From Paracyclopina nana (lineage: Eukaryota > Arthropoda > Copepoda > Cyclopoida > Cyclopettidae), in contig JAGUCH010000004.1 of NCBI GenBank assembly GCA_019096065.1, positions 2,232,001-2,296,000 on the forward strand: a stretch of 64,000 bases of DNA, in the 5' to 3' direction. The notes under the pieces were generated by a model. The model was given only the letters and a program-made list of their open reading frames with translations. It did no database searches and was not told the DNA's origin. The position numbers were made by a program, and so were the translations under genes. Each line of letters opens with the position of its first letter. Positions within the stretch are counted from its first letter, which is position 1. Shown here piece by piece: positions 11,782-48,721 of the stretch.

Positions 11782-11822
11782 TTGATGACAAAAAATTGAG
11801 GCCCCTTTAGTGTATTCACACA

Positions 11823-13529
11823 ATGAAGGCGCTAACAACATTATTACTGCTTCTTCTTGATGCAAGCTGGGCAGCTTACCAACCAGGAACTCCTGGAGTT
11901 GCTTGGACTGAAGAACAAGCAAGCATTATCAAAGCAAAAATTGAAAGGCTATGGCAGAAATCTATGAGAATTGTAGAGGACTTTGACCTTGGCTCTGACA
12001 CAGCCCAAAGCTCTAGCTATGTCTTTGACCCTGATCTGACCACAGTTGTTCCTTTCTATGATGAATGTGTCTCTGATGAAGCCTGTGATCAACTTTTCGC
12101 CAGGAGATTGCCCGACTTTGCTTTCAATGAAAGAAAAGCTCTACGGCTAGCATTTCATGACTGTGTCCCCTATGCTGATCCTAATGGCCCTAAGGGTGGG
12201 TGTGATGGGTGCTTGAACTTGGTTGAAAATAGAGCTGAAAATCATGGTCTTCAACACTCAGTTGCAATTCTGGAAAGGCTATACATGGATGTTGACTTTC
12301 CCAAGCTGAAGAAAGGCCAACCCAATCTACCAGCCTCTCCTTATGAGCTTGGCATGTCAAGAGCAGATTTATGGGCCTTTGCTGGACTCTTAGCTCTAGA
12401 TGAGTTTCAAAAATTCACTGAAGGAGCTTGCATGGTCAAGGAAGAGGAAGCAATGTGTGATGACAACAGCACATCTTGCTACACACCATTTCCAAATTAT
12501 GGCAGGACAATGTTCAAGACTGGGAGAGTTGATTGCACTCCCAACCCAATTGCAGGAGCCAATCAACAGTACTTAGCTAGCAGAGTAGAAGCCCAACCTG
12601 ATCAAAGCTTCAATGGACAAATGACAGTTGACTTTTTTGATCAACACTTTGACATGACAGGAAGAGAGGCCCTTGTTTTGATGGGAGCCCATACTGTGGG
12701 TTTTTTCAATTTGATCATATCTAAGAATGCTTACAGCTGGATGAGAGGCTTAGAGCCATCCATTCAGCAACGTTTGTTCAACAACAAATACTACAAGATC
12801 ATGGCATCAAGACCACAAAAGGTCTATGCTCAATGCGTGGGTTCAATGTCTGATGAGGCTGTAGAAGGTCATTGGCACCTCATGACTAATTTGGCAGGCA
12901 GTACACTGAAACGCCCAGACATTTGGGCAAATGAAACTAAGCTAGGCAGAATCGTTTGGACACCAAAGTACAACAGAGGCCCAAATTGTGCTTTGGGTAG
13001 TGCAGGCCATGATGAACTTGATGGGGAGGAATGGAACAGATTGGTTCCAGGAGGTATTTTTCCATGAAGGACTTTGAGCCATTTGAAATTGAATTTTTGA
13101 TTTCCAGGCATAGATTTTTGCTGTGAGGAGAAGGCCAAAGGTTGCGGGGATTCCAACTCTTGCCCTGAGGAATGTACATTGCTGAGGCCCAATAAAGAAA
13201 GGTTCATTGGGGTTGATATGGGCTTCAGGTTCAAGTGGGAGATTGATGACAAAGGCCTTCCCTATGGCTGCTCAGCTTTCGAAAATAAATGGACTGGAGA
13301 AAGATTGACTGAGCCTGAGTTCAGAGCTGTCAGGGGCTTGGGGCCTCATGGATGTCCAATGCAAACTTTAGATGATGGAACTGGCCAAGAGCTTTGGCAA
13401 ACTGTAGAGCACTTTGCAGACAGCAATGAAGCTTTCATCAATGAGTTTGTAGGAGCATTCCAGAAAATGCAGCAAAATGGATATGACTCCCTGGAGCAAG
13501 GACCTGTCAATTTTTGGTCACACTTCTAG
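11823..13529 (+). CDS. Secreted plant/fungal-type (class II-like) haem peroxidase, 2 exons
   Basis: Exons 11823-13053 and 13108-13529 give 550 residues. A signal peptide (MKALTTLLLLLLDASWAAYQ) is followed by the distal haem motif LRLAFHDC (Arg108, His112), the calcium-site region GGCDGCLNL, and the proximal motif LVLMGAHTVG (His290). These are the signatures of the plant/fungal/bacterial peroxidase superfamily, not of the animal peroxidase family found at 38104-40238. Many cysteines suggest a disulphide-rich extracellular enzyme. It is longer than fungal lignin peroxidases (about 350-380), with extra sequence before the distal motif and at the C-terminus. The substrate is unknown. Such genes are rare in animals, so old acquisition from another kingdom is possible, although this copy is spliced and matches its surroundings. 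Confidence 0.85.
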
Positions 13530-19888: not shown

Positions 19889-22800
19889 TTATATGTTGTT
19901 CAAGTCCAAAGGAAAGCCAATGACTCCAATTTCACCAAGGCCAACTTTGTCATTTAGGTCATCAAAAATGACATACCTGCCTAAAAGCAAGCACTTTTCA
20001 CACACAATTGAGTACACATAGTCACCGCTGTTTTCAAAGGAGAATTGAAAAGTTCCACAAAGATGGCCATCAGATGGGTTGAATACACCCGAGGTCGCAT
20101 CTACTTCCTTATTTGAAACAAAAACTGTGGGATATACCATAAGGTTTCCATCTTGATCAGTAACAGGCAAAATCTTGACTTGCCTAACTGCTATCTCTTG
20201 TGGCAATGTAATCACTACAATGCTTGCTACTCCATGCTGGGATTCATACCCATAAGCTAAACAGGATGTAAAAGTATCAGTAATTCAAAAGCACCATCTA
20301 TCCTTACAGCTAAATTCAGTGTTAATATTTGTTATATCATCAATTGCTTTGATTGGTTCCTTTCCTGCAGCTGCAAAAGTTGTTGCAGCTATTTTAGAAG
20401 AAGTGGCATAGTTAGTGCCTTGGAATTCACAAATCAAATTAGATACTCCTTCAACTCCCAAAGTAGGCCTATACAAATAATTGTTATTTTGGTACAAAAA
20501 GTATACTTTAGCTTTACGTGAATTCTTGCCAAATTGGATTGCCTTTTAAGTACACAAGAGCATCAGATCCAGTAATGGCCGAATATGCTTCACAAGGGCC
20601 TGGGGTCGCTGGAGTATTTCCATAACCAATTTTTCCTGAGACAAACACAAAGGAGCTATTGTCAGCTTTTCCCCCACTTGGCTTAGAATAACTCTTGAGC
20701 ATGTGTCCAACTGCCAAAGCTGACTCTGTCATGTTGAGGGCGTCATAAATGATTTTAGCCATTTCAGTGGTATAAGGTGTGGCAATAAGTCCTGAATTCC
20801 TGGCACAATTGCGTTGTGTGTAATGCTTTGTAAATCGCTTTGCAGAACCACTGATATCAATTTTTTTGTAGTATTTAGCTATGTTTAGGTAAGGAAATTC
20901 CACACTGTGAATGTATCCATCTTTGGCTGCAGCCTCAGCAATGTTTATTTTGGGTGTTTTGATAAACCTTGATGTGTATTTTGAATCACTCCCACCTTTG
21001 ATACATACCTTGAAAAACATTTTACCAATGAAACATAAGTCATGAAAAGTCTCCTTCTGTAACAACCTTGCTGATGTAGTCAGACTCACTAAGAAGCTCC
21101 TCAGCATAAATATTCCGGTCATACACTGTTTGTAAGATACAGTTGCGTAAGGGCTGTGTGTTGAAGTCACTCAAAGACTTAAACAGATAAGCAAAGCAAT
21201 CAGGAGCAGCTGTACACTGAAAGTGATTTGAGGAATCAGCTGTGAATCTTTGGAATATTAAGTTGCTAATGCTAACCCTAGGCCGCGACTGCATAGGCAG
21301 GGATCAAATGCAAGCAAAACTTAGATTTATTTTCACAAAAAATATAGATTACGCCGTGTGAACTTGTGTTTGGTGTGTTCACCGTGTTCGGTGTGTTCAT
21401 TGTGTTCGCCGTGTTCGCTGTGTTCGCTGTGTTCAGCGTGTTCGCCGTGTTCGCTGTGTTCGGTGTGTTCGCCCGTGTTCGGTGTGTTCGCCCGTGTTCG
21501 GTGTGTTCGCCCGTGTTCGGTGTGTTCGCCCGTGTTCGGTGTGTTCGCCCGTGTTCGGTGTGTTCGCCCGTGTTTGGTGTGTTCACCGTGTTCGGTGTGT
21601 TCACCGTGTTCGGTGTGTTCATTGTGTTCGCCGTGTTCGCTGTGTTCGCTGTGTTCAGCGTGTTCGCCGTGTTCGCCCGTGTTCGGTGTGTTCGCCCGTG
21701 TTCGGTGTGTTCGCCCGTGTTCGGTGTGTTCGCTGTGTTCGCTGTGTTCAGCGTGTTCGCCGTGTTCGCTGTGTTCGGTGTGTTCGGCCGTGTTCGATGT
21801 GTTCGCCCGTGTTCGGTGTGTTCGCCCGTGTTCGGTGTGTTCGCCCGTGTTCGGTGTGTTCGCTGTGTTCGCTGTGTTCAGCGTGTTCGCCGTGTTCGCT
21901 GTGTTCGGTGTGTTCGCCCGTGTTCGGTGTGTTCGCCCGTGTTCGGTGTGTTCGCCCGTGTTCGGTGTGTTCGGTGTGTTCCCCGGTGTTCGGTGTGTTC
22001 GCCCTTGTTCTGTGTGTTCGCTTGTGTTCGGTGTGTTCGGTGTGTTCGCTGTGTTCAGCGTGTTCGCTGTGTTCGCTGTGTTCGGTGTGTTCGCCCGTGT
22101 TCGGTGTGTTCGCCCGTGTTCGGTGTGTTCGCCCGTGTTCGGTGTGTTCGCTGTGTTCAGCGTGTTCGCCGTGTTCGCTGTGTTCGGTGTGTTCGCCCGT
22201 GTTCGGTGTGTTCGCCCGTGTTCGGTGTGTTCGCCCGTGTTCGCCCGTGTTCGACCATTTTCGCTGCTAGTTGCAGTTCTTATTTTGCACTAGGAGACCA
22301 GTCTTGTCAAAACTAGATGAAAAAAAGGCCAAAGTTTGGTCTTTGTCAAAAAATGCAATTTTGCTCTTGCAATTATTCACGTTACGCGAGTTTCGCTTCT
22401 AGTTTAAAAAAATGTCAAAAATATGCTAGTTGCAGTTCTTATTTTGCACTAGGAGACCAGTCCTGTCAAAACTAGATGAAAAAAGGCCAAGGTTTGGCCT
22501 TTGTCAAAAATGCAATTTTGCTCTTGCAATTATTCACGTTACGCGAGTTTCGCTTCTAGTTTAAAAAAATGTTAAAAATATGCTAGTTGCAGTTCTTATT
22601 TTGCACTAGGAGACCAGTCTTGTCAAAACTAGATGAAAAAAGGCCAAAGTTTGGTCTTTGTCAAAAAATGCAATTTCGCTCTTGCAATTATTCACGTTAC
22701 GCGAGTTTCGCTTCTAGTTTAAAAATGTCAAAAATATGCTAGTTGCAGTTCTTATTTTGCACTAGGAGACCAGTCTTGTCAAAACTAGATGAAAAAAAGG

Positions 22801-25800
22801 CCAAAGTTTGGTCTTTGTCAAAAAATGCAATTTCGCTCTTGCAATTATTCACGTTACGCGAGTTTCGCTTCTAGTTTAAAAAAATGTCAAAAAATATGCT
22901 AGTTGCAGTTCTTATTTTGCACTAGGAGACCAGTCCTGTCAAAACTAGATGAAAAAAGGCCAAGGTTTGGCCTTTGTCAAAATGCAATTTTGCTCTTGCA
23001 ATTATTCACGTTACGCGAGTTTCGCTTCTAGTTTAAAAAATGTTAAAAAATATGCTAGTTGCAGTTCTTATTTTGCACTAGGAGACCAGTCTTGTCAAAA
23101 CTAGATGAAAAAAAGACCAAGGTTTGGCCTTTGTCAAAAATGCAATTTTGCTCTTGCAATTATTCACGTTACGCGAGTTTCGCTTCTAGTTTAAAAAAAT
23201 GTCAAAAATATGCTAGTTGCAGTTCTTATTTTGCACTAGGAGACCAGTCCTGTCAAAACTAGATGAAAAAAAGACCAAGGTTTGGCCTTTGTCAAAAATG
23301 CAATTTTGCTCTTGCAATTATTCACGTTACGCGAGTTTCGCTTCTAGTTTAAAAAATGTCAAAAATATGCTAGTTGCAGTTCTTATTTTGCACTAGGAGA
23401 CCAGTCTTGTCAAAACTAGATGAAAAAAAGGCCAAGGTTTGGCCTTTGTCAAAAAATGCAATTTTGCTCTTGCAATTATTCACGTTACGCGAGTTTCGCT
23501 TCTAGTTTAAAAAAATGTTAAAAAATATGCTAGTTGCAGTTCTTATTTTGCACTTGGAGACCAGTCTTGTCCAAACTAGATGAAAAAAAGGCCAAAGTTT
23601 GGTCTTTGTCAAAAATGCAATTTCGCTCTTGCAATTATTCACGTTACGCGAGTTTCGCTTCTAGTTTAAAAATGTCAAAAATATGCTAGTTGCAGTTCTT
23701 ATTTTGCACTAGGAGACCAGTCTTGTCAAAACTAGATGAAAAAAAGGCCAAAGTTTGGTCTTTGTCAAAAATGCAATTTCGCTCTTGCAATTATTCACGT
23801 TACGCGAGTTTCGCTTCTAGTTTAAAAAAATGTCAAAAAATATGCTAGTTGCAGTTCTTATTTTGCACTAGGAGACCAGTCCTGTCAAAACTAGATGAAA
23901 AAAAGGACAAGGTTTGGCCTTTGTCAAAAAATGCAATTTTGCTCTTGCAATTATTCACGTTACGCGAGTTTCGCTTCTAGTTTAAAAAAATGTTAAAAAA
24001 TATGCTAGTTGCAGTTCTTATTTTACACTTGGAGACCAGTCTTGTCCAAACTAGATGAAAAAAGACCAAGGTTTGGCCTTTGTCAAAAAATGCAATTTTG
24101 CTCTTGCAATTATTCACGTTACGCGAGTTTCGCTTCTAGTTTAAAAATGTCAAAAAATATGCTAGTTGCAGTTCTTATTTTGCACTAGGAGACCAGTCCT
24201 GTCAAAACTAGATGAAAAAAAGACCAAGGTTTGGCCTTTGTCAAAAATGCAATTTTGCTCTTGCAATTATTCACGTTACGCGAGTTTCGCTTCTAGTTTA
24301 AAAAAATGTCAAAAATATGCTAGTTGCAGTTCTTATTTTGCACTAGGAGACCAGTCCTGTCAAAACTAGATGAAAAAAGACCAAGGTTTGGCCTTTGTCA
24401 AAAAATGCAATTTTGCTCTTGCAATTATTCACGTTACGCGAGTTTCGCTTCTAGTTTAAAAAATGTCAAAAATATGCTAGTTGCAGTTCTTATTTTGCAC
24501 TAGGAGACCAGTCTTGTCAAAACTAGATGAAAAAAGACCAAGGTTTGGCCTTTGTCAAAAATGCAATTTTGCTCTTGCAATTATTCACGTTACGCGAGTT
24601 TCGCTTCTAGTTTAAAAAAATGTCAAAAAATATGCTAGTTGCAGTTCTTATTTTGCACTAGGAGACCAGTCTTGTCAAAACTAGATGAAAAAAGGCCAAA
24701 GTTTGGTCTTTGTCAAAAAATGCAATTTCGCTCTTGCAATTATTCACGTTACGCGAGTTTCGCTTCTAGTTTAAAAAAATGTCAAAAAATATGCTAGTTG
24801 CAGTTCTTATTTTGCACTAGGAGACCAGTCCTGTCAAAACTAGATGAAAAAAAGGCCAAGGTTTGGCCTTTGTCAAAAATGCAATTTTGCTCTTGCAATT
24901 ATTCACGTTACGCGAGTTTCGCTTCTAGTTTAAAAAATGTTAAAAATATGCTAGTTGCAGTTCTTAATTTGCACTAGGAGACCAGTCTTGTCAAAACTAG
25001 ATGAAAAAAAGACCAAGGTTTGGCCTTTTTCAAAAAATGCAATTTCGCTCTTGCAATTATTCACGTTACGCGAGTTTCGCTTCTAGTTTAAAAAATGTCA
25101 AAAATATGCTAGTTGCAGTTCTTATTTTGCACTAGGAGACCAGTCTTGTCAAAACTAGATGAAAAAAGACCAAGGTTTGGCCTTTGTCAAAAATGCAATT
25201 TTGCTCTTGCAATTATTCACGTTACGCGAGTTTCGCTTCTAGTTTAAAAAAATGTTAAAAATATGCTAGTTGCAGTTCTTATTTTGCACTAGGAGACCAG
25301 TCTTGTCAAAACTAGATGAAAAAAGACCAAGGTTTGGCCTTTGTCAAAAATGCAATTTTGCTCTTGCAATTATTCACGTTACGCGAGTTTCGCTTCTAGT
25401 TTAAAAAAATGTTAAAAATATGCTAGTTGCAGTTCTTATTTTGCACTAGGAGACCAGTCTTGTCAAAACTAGATGAAAAAAAGGCCAAAGTTTGGTCTTT
25501 GTCAAAAATGCAATTTCGCTCTTGCAATTATTCACGTTACGCGAGTTTCGCTTCTAGTTTAAAAAATGTCAAAAATATGCTAGTTGCAGTTCTTATTTTG
25601 CACTAGGAGACCAGTCTTGTCAAAACTAGATGAAAAAAGGCCAAAGTTTGGTCTTTGTCAAAAATGCAATTTCGCTCTTGCAATTATTCACGTTACGCGA
25701 GTTTCGCTTCTAGTTTAAAAAATGTCAAAAAATATGCTAGTTGCAGTTCTTATTTTGCACTAGGAGACCAGTCCTGTCAAAACTAGATGAAAAAAAGGCC

Positions 25801-28800
25801 AAGGTTTGGCCTTTGTCAAAAATGCAATTTTGCTCTTGCAATTATTCACGTTACGCGAGTTTCGCTTCTAGTTTAAAAAATGTTAAAAAATATGCTAGTT
25901 GCAGTTCTTATTTTGCACTAGGAGACCAGTCTTGTCAAAACTAGATGAAAAAAGACCAAGGTTTGGCCTTTGTCAAAAATGCAATTTTGCTCTTGCAATT
26001 ATTCACGTTACGCGAGTTTCGCTTCTAGTTTAAAAAAATGTCAAAAAATATGCTAGTTGCAGTTCTTATTTTGCACTAGGAGACCAGTCCTGTCAAAACT
26101 AGATGAAAAAAGACCAAGGTTTGGCCTTTGTCAAAAATGCAATTTTGCTCTTGCAATTATTCACGTTACGCGAGTTTCGCTTCTAGTTTAAAAAAATGTC
26201 AAAAAATATGCTAGTTGCAGTTCTTATTTTGCACTAGGAGACCAGTCCTGTCAAAACTAGATGAAAAAAAAGGCCAAGGTTTGGCCTTTGTCAAAAAATG
26301 CAATTTTGCTCTTGCAATTATTCACGTTACGCGAGTTTCGCTTCTAGTTTAAAAAAATGTTAAAAAATATGCTAGTTGCAGTTCTTATTTTGCACAAGGA
26401 TCACAGACTTGTCAAAAATAGTTGAAAAAAAGGCCAAAGTTTGGTCTTTGTCAAAAATGCAATTTCGCTCTTGCAATTATTCACGTTACGCGAGTTTCGC
26501 TTCTAGTTTAAAAATGTCAAAAATATGCTAGTTGCAGTTCTTATTTTGCACTAGGAGACCAGTCTTGTCAAAACTAGATGAAAAAAGGCCAAAGTTTGGT
26601 CTTTGTCAAAAATGCAATTTCGCTCTTGCAATTATTCACGTTACGCTAGTTTCTCTTCTAGTATAAAAAAATGTCAAATAATATGCTAGTTGCAATTCTT
26701 ATTTTGCACTAGGAGACCAGTCCTGTCAAAACTAGATGAAAAAAAGGCCAAGGTTTGGCCTTTGTCAAAATGCAATTTTGCTCTTGCAATTATTCACGTT
26801 ACGCGAGTTTCGCTTCTAGTTTAAAAAATGTTAAAAATATGCTAGTTGCAGTTCTTATTTTGCACTAGGAGACCAGTCTTGTCAAAACTAGATGAAAAAA
26901 AGGCCAAGGTTTGGCCTTTGTCAAAAAATGCAATTTTGCTCTTGCAATTATTCACGTTACGCGAGTTTCGCTTCTAGTTTAAAAAAATGTCAAAAAATAT
27001 GCTAGTTGCAGTTCTTATTTTGCACTAGGAGACCAGTCCTGTCAAAACTAGATGAAAAAAAGACCAAGGTTTGGCCTTTGTCAAAAAATGCAATTTTGCT
27101 CTTGCAATTATTCACGTTACGCGAGTTTCGCTTCTAGTTTAAAAAAATGTCAAAAAATATGCTAGTTGCAGTTCTTATTTTGTACTAGGAGACCAGTGCT
27201 GTCAAAACTATATGAAAAATAGACCAAGGTTTGGCTTTTGTCAAAAAATGCAATTTTGCTCTTGCAATTATTCACGTTACGCGAGTTTCGCTTCTAGTTT
27301 AAAAAAATGTCAAAAAATATGCTAGTTGCAGTTCTTATTTGACACTAGGGAACTACTCCTGTCAAAACTAGATGCAAAACAGACCAAGGTTTGGCCTTTG
27401 TCAAAAAATGCAATTTTGCTCTTGCAATTATTCACGTTACGCGAGTTTCGCTTCTAGTTTAAAAAATGTCAAAAATATGCTAGTTGCAGTTCTTATTTTG
27501 CACTAGGAGACCAGTCTTGTCAAAACTAGATGAAAAAAAGGCCAAAGTTTGGTCTTTGTCAAAAAATGCAATTTCGCTCTTGCAATTATTCACGTTACGC
27601 GAGTTTCGCTTCTAGTTTAAAAAATGTCAAAAATATGCTAGTTGCAGTTCTTATTTTGCACTAGGAGACCAGTCCTGTCAAAACTAGATGAAAAAAAGGC
27701 CAAGGTTTGGCCTTTGTCAAAAATGCAATTTTGCTCTTGCAATTATTCACGTTACGCGAGTTTCGCTTCTAGTTTAAAAATGTTAAAAAATATGCTAGTT
27801 GCAGTTCTTATTTTGCACTAGGAGACCAGTCTTGTCAAAACTAGATGAAAAAAAGACCAAGGTTTGGCCTTTGTCAAAAATGCAATTTCGCTCTTGCAAT
27901 TATTCACGTTACGCGAGTTTCGCTTCTAGTTTAAAAAATGTCAAAAAATATGCTAGTTGCAGTTCTTATTTTGCACTAGGAGACCAGTCTTGTCAAAACT
28001 AGATGAAAAAAGACCAAGGTTTGGCCTTTGTCAAAAAATGCAATTTTGCTCTTGCAATTTTTCACGTTACGCGAGTTTCGCTTCTAGTTTAAAAAAATGT
28101 TAAAAAATATGCTAGTTGCAGTTCTTATTTTACACTTGGAGACCAGTCTTGTCCAAACTAGATGAAAAAAAGGCCAAAGTTTGGCCTTTGTCAAAAAATG
28201 CAATTTTGCTCTTGCAATTATTCACGTTACGCGAATTTCGCTTCTAGTTTAAAAAAATGTCAAACAATATGCTAGTTGCAGTTCTTATTTTACACTAGGA
28301 GACCAGTCCTGTCAAAACTAGATGAAAAAAGACCAAGGTTTGGCCTTTGTCAAAAAATGCAATTTTGCTCTTGCAATTATTCACGTTACGCGAGTTTCGC
28401 TTCTAGTTTAAAAAATGTCAAAAAATATGCTAGTTGCAGTTCTTATTTTGCACTAGGAGACCAGTCCTGTCAAAACTAGATGAAAAAAAGACCAAGGTTT
28501 GGCCTTTGTCAAAAACTTCAATTTTGATCTTGCAATTATTCACGATACGCGAGTTTCGCTTCTAGTTTGAAAAAATGTCAAAAATATGCTAGTTGCAGTT
28601 CTTATTTTGCACTAGGAGACCAGTCCTGTCAAAACTAGATGAAAAAAGACCAAGGTTTGGCCTTTGTCAAAAATGCAATTTTGCTCTTGCAATTATTCAC
28701 GTTACGCGTGTTTCGCTTCTTGTTTGAAAAAATGTCAAAAAATATTCGCGTTGGAGTTGTTATATTGCACTACGAGGACAATCTTTTCAAAACTAGATGA

Positions 28801-31800
28801 AAAAAGGCCAAAGTTTGGCCTTTGACAAAAAATGCAATTTTGCTCTTGCAATTATTCACGTTACGCGAGTTTCGCTCCTAGCTCAAAAAGTTGCAAAAAA
28901 AAAAATGTGCTAGTTTCAGTTCTTATTTTGCACTAGGAGACCAGTCTTGTCAAAACTAGATGAAAAAAGGCGAGTTTCGCTCCCAGGCACAGTGGCTCAA
29001 AAAGCCATTTTCACGCGCACGCGAAAATCCGCCAAATCGCCTGAATTCTCATTTAACCCCCAATTTACAACTTTTAATTGGGTTGACTTCTAGGCAATGA
29101 AAAGAGCCAAAAATGGGCGCATGTACTAAATACCGCACACAAACGCAACGCACACTACTAAATACCGCACACTACTAAATACCGCACACTACTAAATACC
29201 GCACACAGCAAAAAATGGAAATGCATTTGAAAAAAATTTACAGCAATTGTGAATTATTCAAATATACTAATAATTAAAATAAATTGTTATCACTTAGTGC
29301 TTTACACTGCTAGTTAAATCATTAGTTTTGGAGTATAAGCTAATTTTAATTGATGGAACCGGGCTTTTGTCGGTTTTTTTTTTTTTTTTTTGGTGGCAAA
29401 ATGAGAATTCAGCAACTAGGCAGAGTTTCTTGTGTTCTTGAAAATTGTCTTTTTAACCACCCTCAAAATTGGCTTGTAAGAGCTAAACAATGATTTACTC
29501 TAATCTAATTTGTGAAAAATGACTCTCTTTCTGCCGATTTCACCCTTTTAGAGTCAATTCACACTATTTGTGCATAAATGCTATTCAAATTATGCTTCCT
29601 TCACTGATACACGTTAACTTTCCTTTGATTACTTTATGACAAGAAAAATATAGTGTGCGGTATTTAGTAGGCAAACATACTAAATACCGCACACACTTAA
29701 AAAACATAAACAAAAACAAAAAACCATTATTATACTATGTGTTCATGCTTACTCATGTTTCTTGTCACTAAAGAATAATTTGTGTTTTCCTCCAATCAGT
29801 TTCATTAGTTCATTGACATAATATAATATAAAAAGTAGTGTGCGGCATTTAGTAGTGTGCGATATTTAGTAGTGTGCGTTGCGTTGCGTTTGTGTGCGGT
29901 ATTTTGTATGTACCAAAAATGGGGTTTAAATTGACAGATACATATTCAAAAAAACTTCAAAATCAAACTTTGCTTAAAAAAGAGTTCAGCTTGAAAATTG
30001 GTAGAACAGCCCTTTTTGGCCCTTTGAGTCAGAATCGAATGTCAGCTCAAATTTGACTTATGCCCCGTTCATGTATTAAGAATGCCTTAAGGTATGGAAA
30101 AAATTGTCATAAGGAAAAGTGAATCTGCTGCTGACTGCCAGTCTACGAGTTCAGCTTGGGGCCGAGCAGCATTTTTAATGGCAATTTTTGCTATTTTGTC
30201 ACATGCTTTTCATCATATTTCAGAACAAACAATCTTTCATCACGCTTCTCTGATTAAAGATGAACTTTAGTTTTTGATTTTGCTCAAAAGGATTAAAATG
30301 TAGAGCACTTAAAAGCCAAAATTAGATTTGTTTACTTTCAAGTTGTCTTAAAGTCGATCTGATTTTTTTAGTATCTGCTGGCGTTGTCATAAGACAATTT
30401 TTCTCCTTTCCTTGAGGTGTTTTTCGTGCATTTTCCTAAGGAGTTTGGGGCGTACATGAACGGGACATTAGTCCAGTATTTCGTATTTTCTTACTAGTTT
30501 ATTTGCAGCAATACGCGATGCGCAAGTTTTGGCTCTCGAATAGTCAAAAATGAGTCAAAGTTTGACTTTGCCTCACATTTAGGGTCCAAATGCCACAAAC
30601 TATCAGCCAGTATTGACATTTGGGCTCAAATTTGACTTAGTACAGAATTTCGTATTTTCTTACTAGTTTATTAGCAGCAATACGCGATGCGCAAGTTTTG
30701 GCTCTCGAATAGTCAAAAATGAGTCAAAGTTTGACTTTGCCTCACATTAAGAGTCCAAATGCCACAAACTATCAGCCACTATTGACATTTGGGCTCAAAT
30801 TTGACTTAGTACAGAATTTCGTATTTTCTTACTAGTTTATTAGCAGCAATACGCGATGCGCAAGTTTCGGCTCTCGCATAATCAAAAATGAGTCAAAGTT
30901 TGACTTTGCCTCACATTCATAGTCTAATTGCCTCAAATTATCAGCCACTATTGACATTTTGGCTCAAAAACGCTCAGCAGGGGAGTTATTCAGCCTCCCA
31001 TTTGACCCCTTTTTCAGAACTTGAATTTGTCTTGACATTCTCTGTCACTTTTATTAGAACTTAAAGTCCCTCAGCGCATTTTTGTTTATGAAGTTCTGTA
31101 CTGCTGAGCGCTCAGCGCTATCTCCGCTTGTATTTCTCCGATTTTAAAACTGTTTACAGCTATGGAATCCTGAGATTCAGCAGAAACTACTTTCATTTCA
31201 AAGCAAACTTGATATCTCAACTTTTACTTGCGCAATGGGAGATCAAATGGAACACTTTTTATTAGTAAATCATTCAAGCAACTCAGCTAGAAGTCTCCGC
31301 AAAACTCAGCAGTTGGACTGCTATTAAGCAATAAACTTTGGCGCGCGATATCTCTGGTTCTAGACCAGATATCTGGCTCCAATTTGATTCTATGAAGTCA
31401 GGGCAACCTCCTCTACAAGGTTTCAAGGTGTCATAGACCGTAGACCGACTTTAATTTGATCGCCCGAAATTTGACGCGGACCGTTTTTCGCGGAAAATTC
31501 CACTCTAGAATGCAATAAAGTCTTCAAATTCATGAAAAAGTCCAAGAAAACAGTAAAAGGAAGCTTGGCTGCAAGAATTACCACTTTCCCGGCACTTTTA
31601 GCCCCCAAAATAAGCCAAATTCGGGCCCAAAATGAAAAGTAAACAAAGCTTCTTATATAGTAAACTTCGGGGAGCGATATCTCAGCAATGTCTTAGAACA
31701 GCCTGCTTTATAGCTATGAATTCGTCTTGACATTCTCTATCACTTTTGTATTAAAGTGAACTCAGCATCTCCGCTTCATGTCTCCGTAAAACTTACCCAC

Positions 31801-33313
31801 TAGGCTGCTATTTAGCGGTACCGGCGGTGCGCGATATCTCAGCAACGGAGCGTCTTAGCTTACTTCTATTTGACCTCATGAACTTGTCTTGCACTCAAAG
31901 TAGCTCAGAGCATTTTCATTTACTAAGTTCTGTAGTGCTGAGCGCTCAGCGCTATCTCCGCTTGTAAATGTCCGATTTTAAAACTGCTTACATATTTGGA
32001 ATCCAGAGACTCAGCAGAACAAAGTTTTATATTATAGTAAAATTGATATCTCCACTTTTGGACCCGCTAATTCTTAAAGAAAAGCCCTATGTAGTACGTA
32101 GTACATAAGGCTGCGTTTCATCCGTCTAATCAATGCCAAAATTCGAAAAATGCTCCGATTTTTGAGCTCTTTACAGTTTTGGAAATGGGAGCTCAAACTG
32201 AACACTTTTTATTACATAGTAAACAAGATATCTCAGCTCCTTGTCTCCGTAAAACTCAGCAGTTAGGCTGCTAGTAAACAAGATATCTCAGCTCCTTGTC
32301 TCCGTAAAACTCAGCAGTTAGGCTGCTATTTAGCACGGGCGATCGCGGCGAACACGGGCGAACACAGCGAACACGGGCGAACACAGCGAACACACCGAAC
32401 ACAGGTGAACACACCGAACACGGGCGAACACAGCGAACACGGGCGAACACGGCGAACACGGGCGAACACGGTGAACACGGCGAACACGGCGAACACACCG
32501 AACACAGCGAACACACCGAACACGGGCGAACACACCGAACACGGGCGAACACAGCGAACACGGGCGAACACGGGGAACACGGGCGAACACGGCGAACACG
32601 GCGAACACACCGAACACAGCGAACACACCGAACACGGGCGAACACACCGAACACGGGCGAACACACCGAACACGGTGGAACCCAGCGAACACCGGCGAAC
32701 ACACCGAACACCGGCGAACACACCGAACACGGGCGAACACACGCAACACGGGCGAACACGGGCGAACACACCAAACACGGGCGAACACACCGAACACGGG
32801 CGAACACACCGAACACGGGCGAACACACCGAACACAGCGAACACAGCGAACACGGGCGAACACACCGAACACAGCGAACACATCGAACACAGCGAACACG
32901 GGCGAACACGGCGAACACACTGAACACGGGCGAACACGGGCGAACACAGCGAACACGGGCGAACACGGCGAACACGTGCGAACACGGCGAACACGGGCGA
33001 ACACAGCGAACCCGGCGAACACACCGAACACGGCGAACACACCGAACACGGCGAACACACCGAACACGGGCAAACACACTGAACACAGTGAACATGGACG
33101 AACTCAGGCGGACACAGCGGAAAAATTCTAAGTTTTGCTTGCATTTGATCCCTGCCTATGCAGTCGCGGCCTAACCCTAAGTGCACAATCACTCTCAGTT
33201 GGTGCCAATCCACCAGCTGAGGGATACCCAGAAGGTCTTGGATCCCTAGGGCACAACCCCATGGTGTGCTTTATCAAGATGCAAAGAAGAAATGATGACT
33301 TGACGCTACCCAT
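19889..33313 (-). CDS. Secreted PAN-like/F5-8C-like protein, copy A, 5 exons with transposon-expanded intron 1
   Basis: Exons 33313-33176, 21216-21067, 21008-20518, 20468-20308 and 20256-19889 join in frame to 435 residues. Exon 1 gives a signal peptide and CPRDPRPSGYPSAGGLAPTE. Exon 2 (CTAAPDCFAYLFKSLSDF...NCILQ) has the cysteine and aromatic spacing of a PAN/Apple domain. The middle 165 residues are not recognised. The last 170 resemble an F5/8C or fucolectin-type galactose-binding fold, with AIDD, ASIVVITLPQEIAVRQVKIL, a late Cys in SIVCEKC, GRYVIF and a GEIGVIGF end. Such proteins usually bind glycans outside the cell; the role is inferred. Intron 1 is 11.96 kb because a foldback transposon sits in it; the other introns are 51-60 bp. 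A paralog lies at 34881-36428. Confidence 0.7.
21273..21280. repeat. Target-site duplication, left copy (TAACCCTA)
   Basis: Identical to 33172-33179 on the far side of the foldback element. Confidence 0.9.
21281..21325 (+). repeat. Left 45 bp terminal inverted repeat of the foldback element
   Basis: Starts GGCCGCGACTGCATAGGCAG and ends CAAAACTTAGA; matches 33127-33171 in inverse orientation without a mismatch. Confidence 0.92.
21357..22256 (+). repeat. Left-arm minisatellite (9-10 bp GTGTTCG units)
   Basis: About 900 bp built of 9 bp units such as TGTTCGGTG, TGTTCGCCG and TGTTCGCTG and a 10 bp unit TGTTCGCCCG, in blocks that repeat at a larger scale. All three forward frames stay open because the units contain no stop, giving Cys/Val/Arg-rich pseudo-proteins; these are not genes. 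Confidence 0.95.
22264..28975 (+). repeat. 158 bp satellite array, about 42 monomers
   Basis: The monomer runs from CTAGTTGCAGTTCTTATTTT through CACTAGGAGACCAGTC and ATTCACGTTACGCGAGTTTC to TAAAAAATGTCAAAAATATG. Spacing of recognisable anchors (23059, 24166, 25741, 27799, 28276) fits 158 bp. Monomers fall into types by linked variants (GGCCAAAGTTTGGTC with TTTCGCTC; GGCCAAGGTTTGGCC; GACCAAGGTTTGGCC) arranged with a six-monomer period. The last two monomers (28740 on) are clearly more diverged, as expected at an array edge. Short frames of 67 residues inside it are by-products. Confidence 0.95.
29118..29912. mobile_element. Nested inverted-repeat element, 795 bp
   Basis: The ends are inverse copies: ACTAAATACCGCACAC units and AACGCAACGCAC on the left, the complement on the right, with more ACTAAATACCGCACAC-type units repeated inside each end. 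CCAAAAATGGG stands at both sides (29107-29117 and 29913-29923), an 11 bp duplication. Long duplications of 9-11 bp are usual for Mutator-like elements. There is no coding sequence. It contains the right end of the 155 bp MITE. Confidence 0.75.
29342..29365 (+). mobile_element. Right-end fragment of the 155 bp hairpin MITE
   Basis: Twenty-four bases match the right terminus of the copies at 7870 and 19419 with three differences, ending GGAACCGGGCT. The left end is not found. Confidence 0.6.
30045..30970 (+). repeat. 169 bp tandem repeat, three copies, split by a MITE
   Basis: The phrase CTCAAATTTGACTTAG and following bases recur at 30046, 30625 and 30794. The second interval is 169 bp; the first becomes exactly 169 bp when the 407 bp MITE and its 3 bp duplication are subtracted. 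Units contain ACGCGATGCGCAAGTTT and GAGTCAAAGTTTGACTTTGC. Confidence 0.85.
30061..30467. mobile_element. PIF/Harbinger-type MITE, 407 bp
   Basis: Ends TGCCCCGTTCATGTA and TACATGAACGGGACA are inverse with one mismatch, flanked on both sides by TTA, the standard Harbinger target. Removal restores the 169 bp repeat in which it sits. Non-coding. Confidence 0.85.
31074..32010. repeat. Diverged internal duplication within the foldback element
   Basis: A segment of about 110 bp containing GCTGAGCGCTCAGCGCTATC occurs near 31074-31185 and again near 31905-32010, about 830 bp apart. The surrounding sequence repeats phrases such as GATATCTCAGC. No gene is seen between 30970 and 32336. Confidence 0.6.
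32221..32330 (+). repeat. 55 bp tandem duplication
   Basis: AAACAAGATATCTCAGCTCC and the following bases through TTAGGCTGCTA appear twice in direct succession, directly before the right-arm minisatellite. Confidence 0.85.
32336..33115 (-). repeat. Right-arm minisatellite, inverse of the left arm
   Basis: About 780 bp of CGAACACGGG and CGAACACAG/CGAACACAC units, the complement of the units at 21357-22256. The unit order is not a mirror copy, showing independent expansion or rearrangement since the arms arose. Open frames on the minus strand are by-products. Confidence 0.95.
33127..33171 (-). repeat. Right 45 bp terminal inverted repeat of the foldback element
   Basis: Perfect inverse match of 21281-21325. 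Confidence 0.92.
33172..33179. repeat. Target-site duplication, right copy (TAACCCTA)
   Basis: Equals 21273-21280. It overlaps the exon 1 splice donor of the host gene. Confidence 0.9.
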
Positions 33314-34880: not shown

Positions 34881-36428
34881 TTACTCAAGCTTTAAAGGAA
34901 AGCCCATAACTCCAATTTCACCCAGACCAACTCTATCATTTAGGTCATCAAAGATGACATATTTGCCTATAATCAAGCACTTTTCGCAGACAATTGAATA
35001 CACAAATTCGCCTTTGGATTGAAAGGAAAATTGAAAAGTTCCGCAAAAATGGCCATCTAAGGGATTGAACACACCCAAGGGCACATTTACTTCCTTATTT
35101 GATACATAGATTGTTGAAAAATCCATCAACTGGGCATATTGGTCCGTATCAGGCAGAATCTTTACTTGCCTCACTGCAATTTCTTGTGGCAATGTAATTA
35201 CAACAATGCTTGCTTTTGTGTGCAGGGATTCATAGCCTTTGGCTAAAAAGAAGATGGAATAGCAGCATTTCAAAATAAACTCATAAATCTTATTCTCACT
35301 GCTAAATTCACTGTCAATATTCCAAATACCATCAATAGCTTTACTTGGTTCTTTTCCTGTAACACTAAAAGTAGTTGCTTCTATTTTGGACCATTGGGCA
35401 TAGTTGGTGCCTTGAAATTCACAAACCAAATTAGTCACTCCATCTACTCCCAAAGTAGGCCTATGAAAAAGCAATTCCATCATAGGCTTTCAAAGATGAA
35501 AATTATATTTACATGAATTCTTGCCAGTTAGGATTGCCATTGGAGTACACAAGTGTTTCAGATCCTGTTTTATCTTTGATGTCAGCATATGCATTGCATG
35601 TACCTGGAGTGGCTGAAGTATATCCATAACCAATTTTACCAGAGACATACAAATATGAGCCATAATCCAATGGTGTCCCATCAGGAGCAAGGTGAATTTT
35701 GAGCATGTGACCAACTGCCAAGGCTGACTCTGTCATGTTGAGAGTGTCATAGATGATTTTGGCCATATCAGTGGTATAAGGTGTTGCAATAAGTCCTGAA
35801 TCATTAGCACAAAGGCGTTGAGTGTAATACTTTGTAAATCGTTTGCTAATGCTGCTGCCAAGAGTTATGATCTTAAAGAATTTGGCTACATTTTGGTCAG
35901 GAAATTCCACCCGATGAATGTATTTTTCTTTGGCTGCAGCCTCAGCAATACTTATTTTGGGTGCTTTGATAAACCTTGATATGTAATTTAAATCACTCCC
36001 ACCTCTGACGCATATCTTGAAAGAAACATAAATTGTAAATTATGCAGAATAAGATATGTCTGTTTATGTCAACACCTTGTTGGTGTATTCCGACTCTTTT
36101 AGAAGCTCCTCAGCAAAAATATTTCGGTCAAATGCAGTTTGTAATATACAATTGCTTGAAAAAGAGTTGGGCCCTAAGTTGAAGTCACTCAAAGGCTTGA
36201 ACAGATAGGCAAAGCAATCATGAGCTGCTGTGCACTAAAAGTGGTTTAAATATTCAGCAGATAATCTTTGGAAAATTATGATGTTAATACCCTAAGCGCA
36301 CAATCAGTCTCAGTTGGTGCCAATCCTCCTGCTGAAGGATATCCAGAGGGACTTGGAACTCTCGGGCATTGGCCCAAAGAGTACTTGATCAAAATGCCAA
36401 CTATTAGTAAAGACTTGTAATAACCCAT
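34881..36428 (-). CDS. Secreted PAN-like/F5-8C-like protein, copy B, 5 exons
   Basis: Exons 36428-36291, 36234-36076, 36015-35513, 35460-35300 and 35242-34881 give 440 residues. It has the same exon count, phases and nearly the same exon lengths as copy A; exon 1 is 138 nt and exon 4 is 161 nt in both. The signal peptide is followed by GQCPRVPSPSGYPSAGGLAP; the PAN-like part is CTAAHDCFAYLFKPLSDF with the later NCILQ; the middle keeps SGLIATPYTTDMAKIIYD and NMTESALAVGHMLK; the C-terminal domain ends GLGEIGVMGFPLKLE. Intron 1 is 56 bp here against 11.96 kb in copy A. The conserved middle segment has no family I recognise. A tandem duplication of one ancestral gene explains the pair. Confidence 0.75.
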
Positions 36429-38103
36429 TCTGGCTATATCCCATGCAATCTATTAACTGAAACAAGTCAGTTTGTAATTTAAAGGCTATTGATTAATGTG
36501 ACCCTACAAGATTTTTTTCCCTCGTTAGCAACAATATTTTTCATGAAATTAAACCCCTAGAGATGTGTGGTGGTGATATTAAGCTTAACTCCTAGTATTG
36601 TTAAAATCTGAGCTAAATGGCCCCAATATATTTTTTGGTAAATCTCTGCTGCTTGATGCATCATACTAAATCATATATAGAATGGAAAGCCCCCAAAAAT
36701 GTTTACTAATTGATGAAATCGAATGCTAGTCTACCCCAAATAGATGATTTTTAATACTTGACCTTAAATCAAATTGTTTTGTGATTAATGCAGCGATATT
36801 TTTTCTCGTTGGGAATTGAGAGGTTTCCACTCATGTGTTTTGGGGCTTGCAGCTTTCTAAAGAAACCGCATACAAAAAAGCCCAAAATGAGGGATAATTA
36901 ATTATTTTAATAAAAACAACGAATTCCAATCAGTTAGTTGTATTTTTAAAAATTTGATTTGCATGGTTACAAGAAAACAGTAGAGCTGCAAGCTAATTTT
37001 CAATTTATTTACCGATTATTTACTTTCATCATTGGTGAAGCAAAATATTGGAACAAGATATAATTTATACCTTTTTGAAGTAGTATTTTGCAGTGTGTTA
37101 GGTCGAGGTACAAACTGTGACATAACAAGCCACTACTACGATCTAGGCTTCATCAAGCGAGGCTTGGCCCAACGGAGGTCAATATGGGGCCGCAGAAAAG
37201 TGAATTTATTTCCCTTATTGACTATTCTATGAATACATAGAATACTTTGCGATGCAGATAGACCTGGCCGCGATCCTCAATGGAAGGAGCGCTGGGTTTC
37301 GGGTCGAGGGCGCCATAGGGCCACACATTTATGAGCGCTTGCTGAAGATCAGTGTATTGTTGGTGTATGGTCTTGATCTGGGCCTAGAGGTCACGATAAG
37401 CCTGGGTCTGCTTGTTGGGCCGGGCCCATGTTATAGGGCTCACAAAGGAGATCGGGCTTGCACGGGGGCTCATTGAAATTTTTCACTTTTCTTTTCCTGG
37501 TAAACACCGGTATTGGAAACCCGCGTTAGTTGTTAATTTTTCATTTGGCAAGTAATGGCAACATCTAAGCTAAATAACGGCTGTGCACGTGGTTGGTATG
37601 GACAAATGCAAAATACAAAATCTAGCTTACATAGTGGATGAGTGAAGTAGTGATATATCTAATCGTCCCAAAAAAATAGCTCGTGAGTGAATGAGTTTCA
37701 GAGTTAGTAGGAGCTGCAAACTTGATCAGAGGCTAAAATCAGCAAAAATGGTAATAATGTGACAATTATTGCTTTTTACGTGCCATGAAATTGTTAATCA
37801 GATTTTAGGATATTTTTTCTCGTTTGGATTTGAGAGGTTTCTGCAGTGTTTTGGGTTTTGGGTACTGCAGCTTTCTATAATTAAAAAAAAATCATGCCTT
37901 TCATGCAGTGTAGTTTATTCAGCCATAAATGATAATTAACCAATAACTGGGGGAGACAGAAGGACTGCGAGCTTAAAACAATTTATTTTCCAATTATTTC
38001 TCATGATAGGTGAGGCAAAAAATTGGTGCAAGATATCATTAATGTTTTTTTAATAGTAGCTTGCTTCAATTTTATAGACCTAGTACATTTTCCTTTATAA
38101 TTT
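36429..38103. other. Gene-free region with duplicated segments
   Basis: No supported gene. It carries a two-copy repeat (next entry) and a GC-richer patch near 37100-37480 that stands out from its AT-rich surroundings but matches nothing I recognise. Confidence 0.4.
36775..38075 (+). repeat. Diverged direct repeat, two copies about 1 kb apart
   Basis: Segments 36775-37085 and 37790-38075 share GATATTTTTTCTCGTT, GAGAGGTTTC, GCAGCTTTCTA and TGCAAG/ATATAATT-like phrases in the same order. A third, weaker relative lies near 33440-33790. Confidence 0.55.
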
Positions 38104-44617: not shown

Positions 44618-45309
44618 ATGAGACTTTGGCTAGTTTTGCTGGCTTTTTTGACTTTTAGCAGCTTTGTGAGTTGTTTGAGGAAAAACATTAAGTATATGCC
44701 GATGGGATACGAAAAAGAGCCAGAATGTCCTGAAATTCCTGCAAAGAAACCCAGCTCAGGATTCAGCGTGTGGATGTTTCTCACGAGCATGGCACTTGTC
44801 ACGAACATAGCAGCAAATATTGCCAACAATGTCAACAACAATAACAACAACGTAAGTAATATTAATGATACATAATACTATTTTTATTCGGGAAAAGGAA
44901 TACTTTCTAGAATAATAACAATGACAATCAAGATAACCAGAACACAAACAACTTTAACAATGCCATGAATATGAACTCTAACATGAACATGAACATGCTG
45001 ACAATGGCAATGGGAAAAGCCTTTGAATATTCCAAGGGAGGAGGAGTGCAAAGTTGCATTTTAAACTATGTTTGCTCACAAATGATGGCCAAAGAAGAAG
45101 AAAAGGTACAGAGTTTCCATGATGCAGCCCAAAGACTGTTCAGGTAAAAAGCCAAACAAAGTTTCTCATTTTAAATTAGAAATCCCAAGTTTGATTTCAG
45201 CTTGACTGGCGGGTACATTCTAATCGAAGCTATAACGAACAGTAATAATTTTACTCTCCAAAACTTGTGTCAATCTGCTCAATGTCCAATAAATGATCAC
45301 AGCCTTTGA
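44618..45309 (+). CDS. Secreted Asn/Met-rich protein of unknown function, 3 exons
   Basis: Exons 44618-44851, 44911-45143 and 45201-45309 give 191 residues. A signal peptide (MRLWLVLLAFLTFSSFVSCL) is followed by a short Pro/Lys part, a hydrophobic helix around FSVWMFLTSMALVTNIAANI, an Asn-run that crosses the first intron, an Asn/Met segment with alternating NMNMN, and a C-terminal helical part with four cysteines in the last 90 residues. I recognise no family. A TATAAA-like element lies about 50 bp upstream. Its last 13 coding bases overlap the last 13 of TERT on the opposite strand. Three consistent splice joins and a signal peptide argue for a real gene. Confidence 0.65.
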
Positions 45310-48300
45310 AAGGCAAAACTTTTGGCACTAAAGGTTTTTCTCTCCTTCAGCGTTTTCTTAAGCATTTTGGTAGGGATCTCTGACAACTTCACAAATGGCA
45401 ATTTATGCTCACTGTAAAAGCACGAGAATTTTTCCTTGAGCACCACATAAAACGCATATTTGGTCAAGTTTCCAATTTGCAGGCAAGTCAGTGAATTTTG
45501 GGCCAAATCATAACTTTTCACGGCTCGCAAGTAAACCTTTTGAATTTTACTCGAAACTTTTAAAATGATTTTTGACAAAAAGTCTGGGGGAGGTTTTCGT
45601 TTGCAAGCGAAATACTTGGACGCTATCATGGAATGCAACTTTAGAGCATTCATAATGTTCAGCTCAAAGATGTTTTTCATCACATTTTCGGTTCCATTTA
45701 GAGCCTCGTCCAGGAAAAGTGGCTTCATGCTCAAACCAGCTATGAAGAGCATTTTATGCTCTATAAAAGCTCCCGTGGACTTGCTAAACTTCATGCAAAA
45801 GTTTGTTGCGTATGCAACATTTTGCCCAAAATAGCCCTCATAGTCAGGTCTGCATTGGAGGTTATCGCCATCGATGGTTGACCCGCAAAAACGTAGCATT
45901 TCTACAATTAAAAAATAATGAATAACATTTCATGGTCGAATATGATTATTTTTACCTTGACTATTCGAGGCTGCACCAAAATTAGAAGCAGTTTTATCAC
46001 TTTGAATGATGCAATTATAATCAGGGAATCCACGGTGCATTTTAGCCAAAAATTGGCTGGATTTCTCTTGGTCAGTGCTAATAAAGATAAAGTCATCCAT
46101 GCCACGTGCAAACAGCTCATTTTGCGTTGAAGCAAACTGCATTAAGTGCTTCTGTACCAAATGGCCATAGTAGATATTGCACAAAGGAGTCGACAGCGAG
46201 TCGCCTAAAACGTGAGATATATCATATATTGGTTTGTTTTTCTATTAATGCAATTTGCCTTACCTTGGACAATCCCTTGGGTTAAGAGATAATTTCTCCT
46301 CTTGGATCCTACTTTTAACTGCAGAGTGTGCAATTTGAGCCGTTTTGCAACCAACTTCAGCTCACTCGAGGTATCCAATTTGCGATAGCCACAATAGCCC
46401 AAGTAAGTAAAATGAGAAAAATAATCTGGGATTTTATCCAGCTCCTCTTGAGAGCTGATAAACTTCTTTGTGAAAGGCTTGTTTTCGTTGGCTTTTTTGA
46501 ACTGCAAGGAATGCACGTAAAAAGCCTGGGGATTTTGCCTTGACAGCTCCTTCAAAATCTCCACCATTTTCCCATGGTCCACTGACCCGAAAGCGTCTTT
46601 TATGTCGCATATGACAGCATAGAACTTTTCACCCTTATGCGACTTGAGGTACCTTGACAAAAGGCTGTGAAAAAGAATGCCTGCAAAAATAAGAGAAAAA
46701 AGGACTCTAAATCATACATAGTGTTTTTGCAGCAAGGATACTAAAGGAGGACAGGTAGATTTGAAAATAGCTGTAAACTGACCCATTGTTGGCCAGGTCA
46801 CCTTTTAAATGTCCAGACAAAGGGAGAAAAATAGGTTAAAAATAGAACATGGCCAAACACATGGAATTGAAAATAACAAATTATGTTCAGTCTGCAAAGG
46901 GGGGCCATCATGAAAGGACACTTTATCATCTTTTTCTGCATTTCCGCAGTTCTCGCGAACCCATTTGATGCTTTCTACAAAGGACAGGTGAAACTACTTT
47001 ATGGAAAATCAAAAATCTTTTAAACACAAATATCCAAATTTCAGCCATCTCCAATCGGTTATGGCACTCTATTCCGAACAATTCGGGTACAATCTGCCCA
47101 TTTGGCCGAGACAAACTTATTTGCTGAAGAGGAAGGTGAATGCCTGAGACGAGCAATGTGCGCATTGGGAACGACCAAAGATGTCACCGAATTTCCCAAG
47201 CTGTCTCTTGGCAGAGGACTTGAGCATTTGCATGGCATCCTGGAGCAAATGGTGGAAGAAGTGAATGCCGTGGACACCAATGCAAGACATAATTTCCCCA
47301 GACTTCATCAAGCTGTAGCCAGGTGAACACATTCTTACTTTATCAGGACTTGAGCAATTTTCAATCAAAACCATTTTTAGCTATGAAGTGGGAGAAACAA
47401 CCAAGGATCAGGTGCTGTGCGACACTCTGTTTGCTTGCCCTACCACTTCCAGAGAGCTCATCAGCCAAGTGAAAGATGAGGCTGAGACTGACTATGAAAT
47501 GGACAGCATGAAAGTATTTGAGATCCGCGAGAGCCGAGCCACCTGCAAAGCTGTGGGAAAACTCTGCCCTGGCATCAGCATTGGATGTGCCCTGTGTGGA
47601 TTGTTCAGCCCTGGCACTTGTGGAGACCAATGCATTGTGGCTGGAGTCTACTGCGGAGTCAGCTCCTATGCTTGCTCTGCTGAAAAGCCTTCAACTAAAC
47701 GCAAAAATCCTGTCTTACCAAAAACCCTCTTTTAAACTGCAGCAGTTGTCATTCATCAACATTTCACCTGATTTTTGGGAGACCAATAAAAGTAGCTAAC
47801 TAACTTCTAAACAGCAGCAGTTGTCATTCATCAACATTTGAGCTTATTTTTGGGAGGCCAATAAAAGTAGCTCTTGAACTTCTCACCTTTGACATCAATT
47901 GTGTGGGGAAAGCAGGTTCTAGCCAAGTATTCCAGCAATAGCCTAGTGTCCTCGACTTTGTCCTTGATGTCACTACAATTTTTCACCTTTCTTGCAATCA
48001 ATCTCACCGACTTGAGGCCCTTTTTGGGTAGAAGCCTACATCTGGCGATGGGTGGAGCCAAGTCTCCGAATTTCTGCTTGATTTTCACGCTCAAGTCTGG
48101 CTTGATGAACTTGATGGAGCGCTGAGCTTTGAAATGATCAAAGGTCTGATCAAGAACAGATTGGAATTCTCTTTTCCGGTAGAAAAACAGCCGATTTCGA
48201 CCACGGGCAGTTTCTGTCACATGGAAACATGAGGTGAGCAGATTCCAAAAGAGGTTCTCACAAATCCAAACGGTGAGTTTGGACATGACATGCAAAGGCC

Positions 48301-48721
48301 AGTTCAAGTCCTTCAAGTTGTACAAAATGTCTGATGGATAAATTGATGTCATTTTGCCGGCCGAGAACAAAATGCAGCAGTTTTGCGAAAACCTCATGAC
48401 ATTCTCGGCACAATCACCCAAGAGACTCTTGGGCAAGACTTTAAGGCCAAACGCTCGGAAAAGGTTGTGCAGAGATTTGTAGTCTACGTCTTGACCATAT
48501 TGCCGATGAGGAATGTGTTTCTGCAACAGATATTTCACTTTGGTGCTTTTCAAATTTCGCCTTAGATCTTCTAAGGATTGAGCTATGTCTGCGTTATTGG
48601 ACGCGTTGACGTGAGCCAAAAATTTGGCGTGCATTTCCACATTTTCCAAAGGGTTGCGAAACACTTCCCAGGAGTTGAAAGAGTAGGGCGAATATTTACG
48701 TTTTATCCGAACTTTGTCCAT
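45297..48721 (-). CDS. TERT: Telomerase reverse transcriptase lacking the TEN domain, 4 exons
   Basis: Exons 48721-47887, 46680-46264, 46204-45956 and 45901-45297 join in frame to 701 residues. The RNA-binding part has SLLGDCAENVMRF and the telomerase-specific T motif FWNLLTSCFHVTET followed by RNRLFFYRKREF (about 159-186). Reverse-transcriptase motifs follow: 1/2 (ARCRLLPKKGLKSVRLIAR), A (AVICDIKDAFGS, Asp304), B' (GIVQGDSLSTPLCNIYYG), C (RGMDDFIFIS, Asp454-455), E (RFCGSTID). The C-terminal extension matches TERT thumb sequences (FIAGLSMKPLFLDEALNGT). T motif plus order exclude a retroelement polymerase. No N-terminal TEN domain is seen upstream, as in insect TERTs. Intron 1 is 1,206 bp and contains another gene on the plus strand; the remaining introns are 54-59 bp. 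Confidence 0.93.
46910..47735 (+). CDS. Secreted cysteine-rich protein nested in TERT intron 1, 3 exons
   Basis: Exons 46910-46987, 47045-47322 and 47381-47735 give about 236 residues. A signal peptide (MKGHFIIFFCISAVLANPF) opens the protein. The central part is helical; the C-terminal 110 residues hold about fifteen cysteines in patterns such as CPGISIGCALCGLF and GTCGDQCIVAGVYCG, ending in a basic tail. I recognise no family. All three exons fall between TERT exons 1 and 2 on the opposite strand, and 57 bp introns match the local norm. Downstream lies a duplicated 75 bp segment with two AATAAA signals. Confidence 0.7.
47739..47888 (+). repeat. 75 bp tandem duplication carrying two poly(A) signals
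   Basis: GCAGCAGTTGTCATTCATCA and the following bases recur exactly 75 bp later. Each copy contains CCAATAAAAGTAGCT, giving AATAAA at 47785-47790 and 47860-47865. The second copy runs into the splice donor of TERT exon 1 (47887/47886). Confidence 0.85.

Follow-up and report, generated by a model that had tools for sequence, protein, structure and literature searches.

A 158 bp satellite as an internal module of foldback transposons in the copepod Paracyclopina nana

The window, a stretch of 64,000 nucleotides from the Paracyclopina nana genome, contains a foldback element of 11,891 bp (positions 21281-33171) inserted in a gene region. We interpret this element, with a probability of roughly 0.85, as an apparently non-autonomous foldback transposon from a multi-copy family (family A), with a resident 158 bp satellite module and with arrays and arms that change, and segments that are exchanged, after insertion. 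The 158 bp satellite is an internal module that travels with the element, since the same junctions recur between different target duplications; its arrays move inside a transposon. It has long been asked how satellite DNA spreads, and a single genome here offers insertions with empty sites, a 158 bp satellite so far found only with transposons, and a 169 bp satellite that also occurs away from them. It also includes an insertion that was duplicated and whose two copies have arrays of unequal length, so that movement, expansion and exchange could be separated and measured.

Architecture of the element and its insertion sites

The features of the element and of its paralogous empty site are as follows (window coordinates; strand in brackets where one applies).

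21273-21280: target-site duplication, left, TAACCCTA
21281-21325 (+): 45 bp terminal inverted repeat, left, GGCCGCGACTGCATAGGCAGGG...
21326-21364 (+): subterminal stretch TTTATTTTCACAAAAAATATAGATTACGCCG..., specific to the left end and without a match at the right end
21365-22253 (+): left arm, 889 bp of a 9/19 bp minisatellite of GTGTTCGCC type
22265-28968 (+): 158 bp satellite array, period 158, 42.4 copies, 94% matches, about 6.7 kb
29008-30463: segment without a counterpart in the sister element C3:4598386, a possible nested insertion
30468-30968 (+): 169 bp satellite, three copies
30774-32277 (+): core without a transposase match; against C3:4598386 it forms two blocks, 98-100% identical, that meet at 31233/31234
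32217-32328 (+): 55 bp repeat, two copies, adjoining the right arm, with matches also in other elements and at locus L064
32338-33119 (-): right arm, 782 bp, minisatellite inverted
33127-33171 (-): 45 bp terminal inverted repeat, right
33172-33179: target-site duplication, right, TAACCCTA
35786-36433 (+): stretch of the paralog in which the insertion site is empty

The two terminal inverted repeats match without a mismatch over exactly 45 bp, and the arm minisatellite, a 9/19 bp unit of GTGTTCG type, runs in opposite orientation in the two arms. The element thus has the long inverted arms built of tandem repeats that characterize foldback transposons, and its middle domain varies between copies. 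Text resembling the left-specific subterminal stretch is found at the left end of most copies fetched. The possible nested insertion contains an inverted pair of 17 bp-unit repeats (29124-29206 and 29834-29908). Stop-to-stop frames of at least 70 aa in the window element fall mostly within the arms, with two such frames (89 and 70 aa) outside tandem repeats, and a search of the window against Rfam gave no match. Elsewhere in the window, we observed pieces of a telomerase reverse transcriptase gene (TERT_C and RNA-binding domain; 45297-48766, minus strand) and a frame matching the peroxidase family PF00141 of Pfam (11811-13067), whose closest named matches come from copepods, the first at 48% identity and after 18 unnamed matches. 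TTAGG-type repeats are present at three of the five contig ends fetched.

The insertion can be read directly against its paralog: the window flanks, joined through a single TAACCCTA, align across the junction to the paralogous stretch, apart from a 4 bp gap next to the site. A further empty site is preserved at C2:511188, an element that sits in a 169 bp satellite array, where the 40-mer made by joining the flanks is found 40/40 in one repeat on each side of the element. The ends and the 8 bp duplication are thereby fixed independently of the window.

To find further copies, we searched the host assembly (92 Mb, 10 contigs) with the 32 bp end, which gave 46 matches at up to 3 mismatches and none with the reversed-pattern control, a result beyond chance. 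These ends form 16 pairs, 15 of which were examined, including the window element and leaving out C7:1853856; C2:7030001 and C3:5674001, with right ends only, were excluded from the family-A count. Exact duplications of 8 bp (n=11) or 9 bp (n=2), all different, flank 13 of the 15 paired elements. The remaining two share both flanks and are counted as one segmentally duplicated insertion, so that 13 of 14 insertions are exact, and the family consists of dispersed copies with target duplications in the range of about 8-10 bp known from foldback elements. A sequence-only reading of this DNA had proposed the foldback architecture, the clean insertion opposite an unoccupied paralogous site, and other genomic copies with 8 bp duplications; each of these holds, and the objection that the ends might have no other copy falls away. 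A shorter family-A pattern (64 matches with 3 mismatches or fewer, against 3 for the control) also revealed a variant, A' (GGCCGCGACTGCATAGCCAGG), in five pairs.

The 158 bp satellite as a resident of foldback elements

Among the 15 family-A members examined, 14 have the 158 bp unit, in 1 to 42 copies. The one member without it, C5:7280779, bears a nested LTR-like element, and C2:15927118 has just two separate single units. In 8 of the 14 members the junction between arm and satellite is in the same phase (..TTCGC followed by TGCTAG or TGCTTG, with minor variation), and the target duplications around these members differ; in the other 6 the junction departs from this phase. In four of the eight common-phase members (C5:2037474, C2:6835738, C3:10560601 and C3:3165541), the array comprises 7.6 to 10.1 units; the first monomers of these arrays correspond (97-99% in four comparisons), their inner monomers are out of order, and three of the four have the right array edge in common. 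The corresponding first monomers, together with the shared edges and junctions, indicate that the 158 bp array moved as an array.

We mapped the satellite across the genome with two 158 bp monomer searches (374 and 463 matches; 40 of 105 and 40 of 106 candidates scored), from which 35 distinct loci among the matches listed were grouped by hand. Of these loci, 28 lie within hand-matched foldback end pairs, which make up 0.61% of the genome; the binomial value of 6e-56 assumes independent loci and hand-matched pairs from listed ends, and is to be read as far beyond chance only. Family-A pairs account for 15 of the 28 and pairs with a second type of end for the other 13, of which one is nested in an A' pair. 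Four further loci have a single family-A end no more than 2.1 kb away, C9:446655 and C7:3248067 abut arm-type minisatellite on one side, and C1:5980942, whose surroundings are unread, is 10.3 kb from a lone family-A end. Apart from this last locus, none of the 35 listed is a free-standing 158 bp array; free arrays may have been missed, since the candidates were scored only in part.

The 169 bp satellite provides a contrast. Searched in the same way (398 matches; 40 of 192 candidates scored), it yields 28 listed loci, grouped by hand, of which 10 lie inside foldback end pairs and 18 outside, "outside" being relative to the known end types. Three of the 18 are within 3 kb of a family-A element, and one outside array spans 10.7 kb. 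With only 10 of 28 loci inside, the association of the 158 bp unit with end pairs is not produced by the method alone. A kinship between the 158 and 169 bp units was also considered and dropped as unconvincing (local score 77; the highest of 300 shuffles, which preserved only single-base content, was 73).

The 158 bp unit is also found inside foldback elements with different ends and unrelated arms. These arms are built of a 98-105 bp unit at L059, L061, L063, L064 and L071, of a 27 bp unit at L062 and the start of L064, and of a 63/9 bp GTGATCAG unit at L060; L064 is rearranged. L059 and L061 terminate in GGYAGTGGCCAGGTGTCCAGCG..., with an 8 bp duplication that, read by eye, is exact in L059 and 7/8 in L061, and the right end of L062 is related to the same type. 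This second end pattern gave 128 matches at up to 2 mismatches (control 0), and pairs were matched by hand from the 100 end matches listed. Of the 35 second-type pairs matched by hand, only 13 contain a listed 158 bp locus, and of the five A' pairs one does, via a nested element; the satellite is thus not a constant part of the other families. Separately, the nested foldback pairs at C7:5062251-5070208 and C5:7277785-7291665 appear to be of different end types. The arm repeat of the window element may also exist as a long free array, to judge by sequence similarity at the start of the 268 kb contig C10 (C10:1-2500, L065), where the arm minisatellite matches 2496 of 2500 bases, the longest match at about 70-73% identity.

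The satellite had first been taken for cargo: on this view, the window element alone captured a free array that already existed and brought it to a new position. That course of events is conceivable for this genome in that some listed loci of the 169 bp satellite fall within end pairs and others do not, and in that one element has inserted into an array of this satellite. We nevertheless consider it improbable for the 158 bp unit: with the unit in 14 of 15 members and a junction shared by 8 of 14, the satellite is not cargo of the window copy, it is also present in elements with other ends and arms, and 34 of the 35 loci listed fall within pairs or lie close to a lone end or an arm. What survives of the earlier proposal is that the array moves with the element, as the junctions shared between sites with different duplications indicate; the suggestion that such movement seeds arrays outside transposons finds no example among the 35 loci listed, C1:5980942 being unread.

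Alternatively, the satellite could be a target, around or into which different foldback elements repeatedly insert. Nesting of this general kind exists, with C7:5063678-5068408 inside the C7 pair and C5:7280779-7287013 inside the C5 pair named above. The window's paralogous site, however, has no satellite, which contradicts this reading for family A; moreover, the duplications flank the whole unit of arms and interior in 13 of the 14 family-A insertions examined, and elements with different flanks share one junction, so we regard this alternative as very unlikely. Least credible of all is a mimic created by collapsed or mis-joined repeats, which the highly repetitive arms and array and a sister element with a potentially artefactual 10 kb inverted repeat of 99.5% identity might suggest, but which the 17 stretches compared, all free of N, the 13 different duplications and the two empty sites speak against.

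We return to the resident-module reading. The presence of the 158 bp satellite in elements with other ends and arms would be explained most simply by exchange of segments or by common ancestry. As a tentative extension, the 158 bp satellite might live only in transposons, as a transferable module moved between foldback families with different ends and several unrelated arm minisatellites; it would persist by hitchhiking on any family that is mobile at the time and by expanding anew once it has moved.

Change after insertion and the source of transposase

The segmentally duplicated insertion (C2:194816 and C2:255757) gives a direct view of change after insertion: 8 monomers were extracted from the first copy and 9 from the second, for the most part collinear, and the right arm counts 24 units in the first and 54 in the second. 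Across 200 monomers from 21 loci, the nearest neighbour lies in the same locus for 117, against a mean of 17 and a maximum of 31 in shuffles. The window's 42 monomers are 96.4% alike, and their nearest relatives are the 4 monomers of C3:936993 at 95.1%.

A comparison with its nearest relatives shows the window element to be a mosaic. C3:936993 is the closest copy for the outer portions of the arms, the first satellite copies and the innermost right edge (93-99%), while the core is closest to C3:4598386 (98.9% identity; the next best match reaches 96.6% and covers a third of that length). For the inner portions of the arms, C3:10560601 and C2:6835738 are closer than C3:936993, and the exchange was thus not a simple two-parent event. 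The sister element C3:936993 itself contains an inverted repeat (C3:938680-959249, L045-L047) with 10 kb arms that are 99.5% identical, 450 bp apart and have ends AGCGCTAG; it is either a young giant palindrome or an assembly fold-back.

In the mechanism we propose, a transposase supplied in trans presumably acts on the ends (45 bp repeat and minisatellite arms). The element inserts with 8 bp duplications, as seen at the sites, and the satellite travels along as an internal module, as the shared junctions show. Subsequent changes in array and arm length and exchange of segments, to which the duplicate with 8 versus 9 monomers and the mosaic relatives point, would probably proceed by unequal crossing-over, slippage or gene conversion.

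We looked for a transposase both inside the elements and elsewhere in the genome. Frames of at least 70 aa with less than half of their length in tandem repeats numbered 110 in loci L039-L058 and the window element, and 54 of them were scanned against Pfam; the frame scan left out L059-L069, L071 and the window's 70 aa frame. None of the 54 frames, the window's 89 aa frame included, matched a transposase family, and the only matches were to 5'-nucleotidase (3 members) and, weakly, to DUF7734 (E 0.0039). For the frames scanned, a transposase gene inside the elements was rejected. The longest frame, in C5:7280779, had no homolog at E 0.001; it lies between identical 418 bp direct repeats and is taken to belong to a nested LTR element. 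This LTR-like element (L056, 619-6059) includes a putative gag-like frame.

Genome-wide, the MULE domain gave 5 matches and the P-type domain 11 matches at 9 places, by eye all outside the listed end pairs, and no family-type ends surround the MULE frame in the single 4.8 kb stretch fetched. No transposase gene flanked by the same ends was found among the frames and domains searched. A MULE-type frame of 537 aa is present on C6 (L070, 1315-4053), with what we take to be a RING-like tail; upstream of it lies a 63 bp minisatellite, and downstream a segment of about 137 bp that resembles the 169 bp satellite. The Merlin (IS1595-type) domain had no match in the genome and matched one of 14 control genomes, which gives no sign of Merlin; the hAT and KDZ (Zisupton) domains had no match in the genome and likewise none in the 14 controls. 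The 8 bp duplications fall within the range of about 8-11 bp typical of Mutator (MULE) elements, and they also fit P, hAT and Merlin. Helentrons and HINE elements are not known to have target duplications or symmetric inverted ends, and the 45 bp inverted ends and 8 bp duplications set the element apart from them.

Relation to known systems

In the literature covered (titles and abstract openings of part of the matches, with subscription papers mostly outside), we found neither a copepod example nor any foldback elements in which different end families share a satellite module. Galileo, a foldback-like element of the P superfamily, resembles the present family in its long, internally repetitive inverted repeats, which hold extra transposase binding sites, but its superfamily was assigned through its transposase, whereas here no transposase is at hand for assignment (PMC3688188). 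The arm repeats described here might serve as extra binding sites in the same way. Tm1, a Mutator/Foldback element of root-knot nematodes, shares the composite inverted repeats of variable length and the copies without transposase, but its duplications are 9 bp long and a Phantom-like transposase copy is known for it (PMC3169594). Rehavkus and the aphid Phantom MULE are likewise arthropod transposons (Rehavkus also occurs in annelids) with an internal minisatellite, and their duplications measure 9 bp and 8-10 bp, respectively; they are defined by their transposase, in contrast to the present family, where none is linked to the ends (PMC6446971).

The closest precedents among these sources are the Cg_HINE elements of the oyster and Tetris. 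Cg_HINE elements, non-autonomous Helentrons of Crassostrea gigas, are similarly modular, with flanking modules and satellite-like central repeats, two arrays in some; they belong to the Helentron class, in contrast to the inverted ends and 8 bp target duplications described here (PMC7492417). Tetris of Drosophila virilis is a foldback element with long inverted repeats, internal TIR-220 tandem repeats of variable number, duplications of 8-10 bp and no transposase found, all of which it has in common with the present family (PMC4079207). Its repeats are tied to satellite arrays, and arrays without Tetris ends have been reported, whereas no free 158 bp array appears among the loci listed here (PMC4079207). 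The Tetris satellite unit lies within the inverted repeats, whereas in the window element a one-sided 158 bp array lies between arms of short-unit minisatellite, and, comparing by description, the 158 bp satellite differs further in being common to elements with other ends (PMC4079207).
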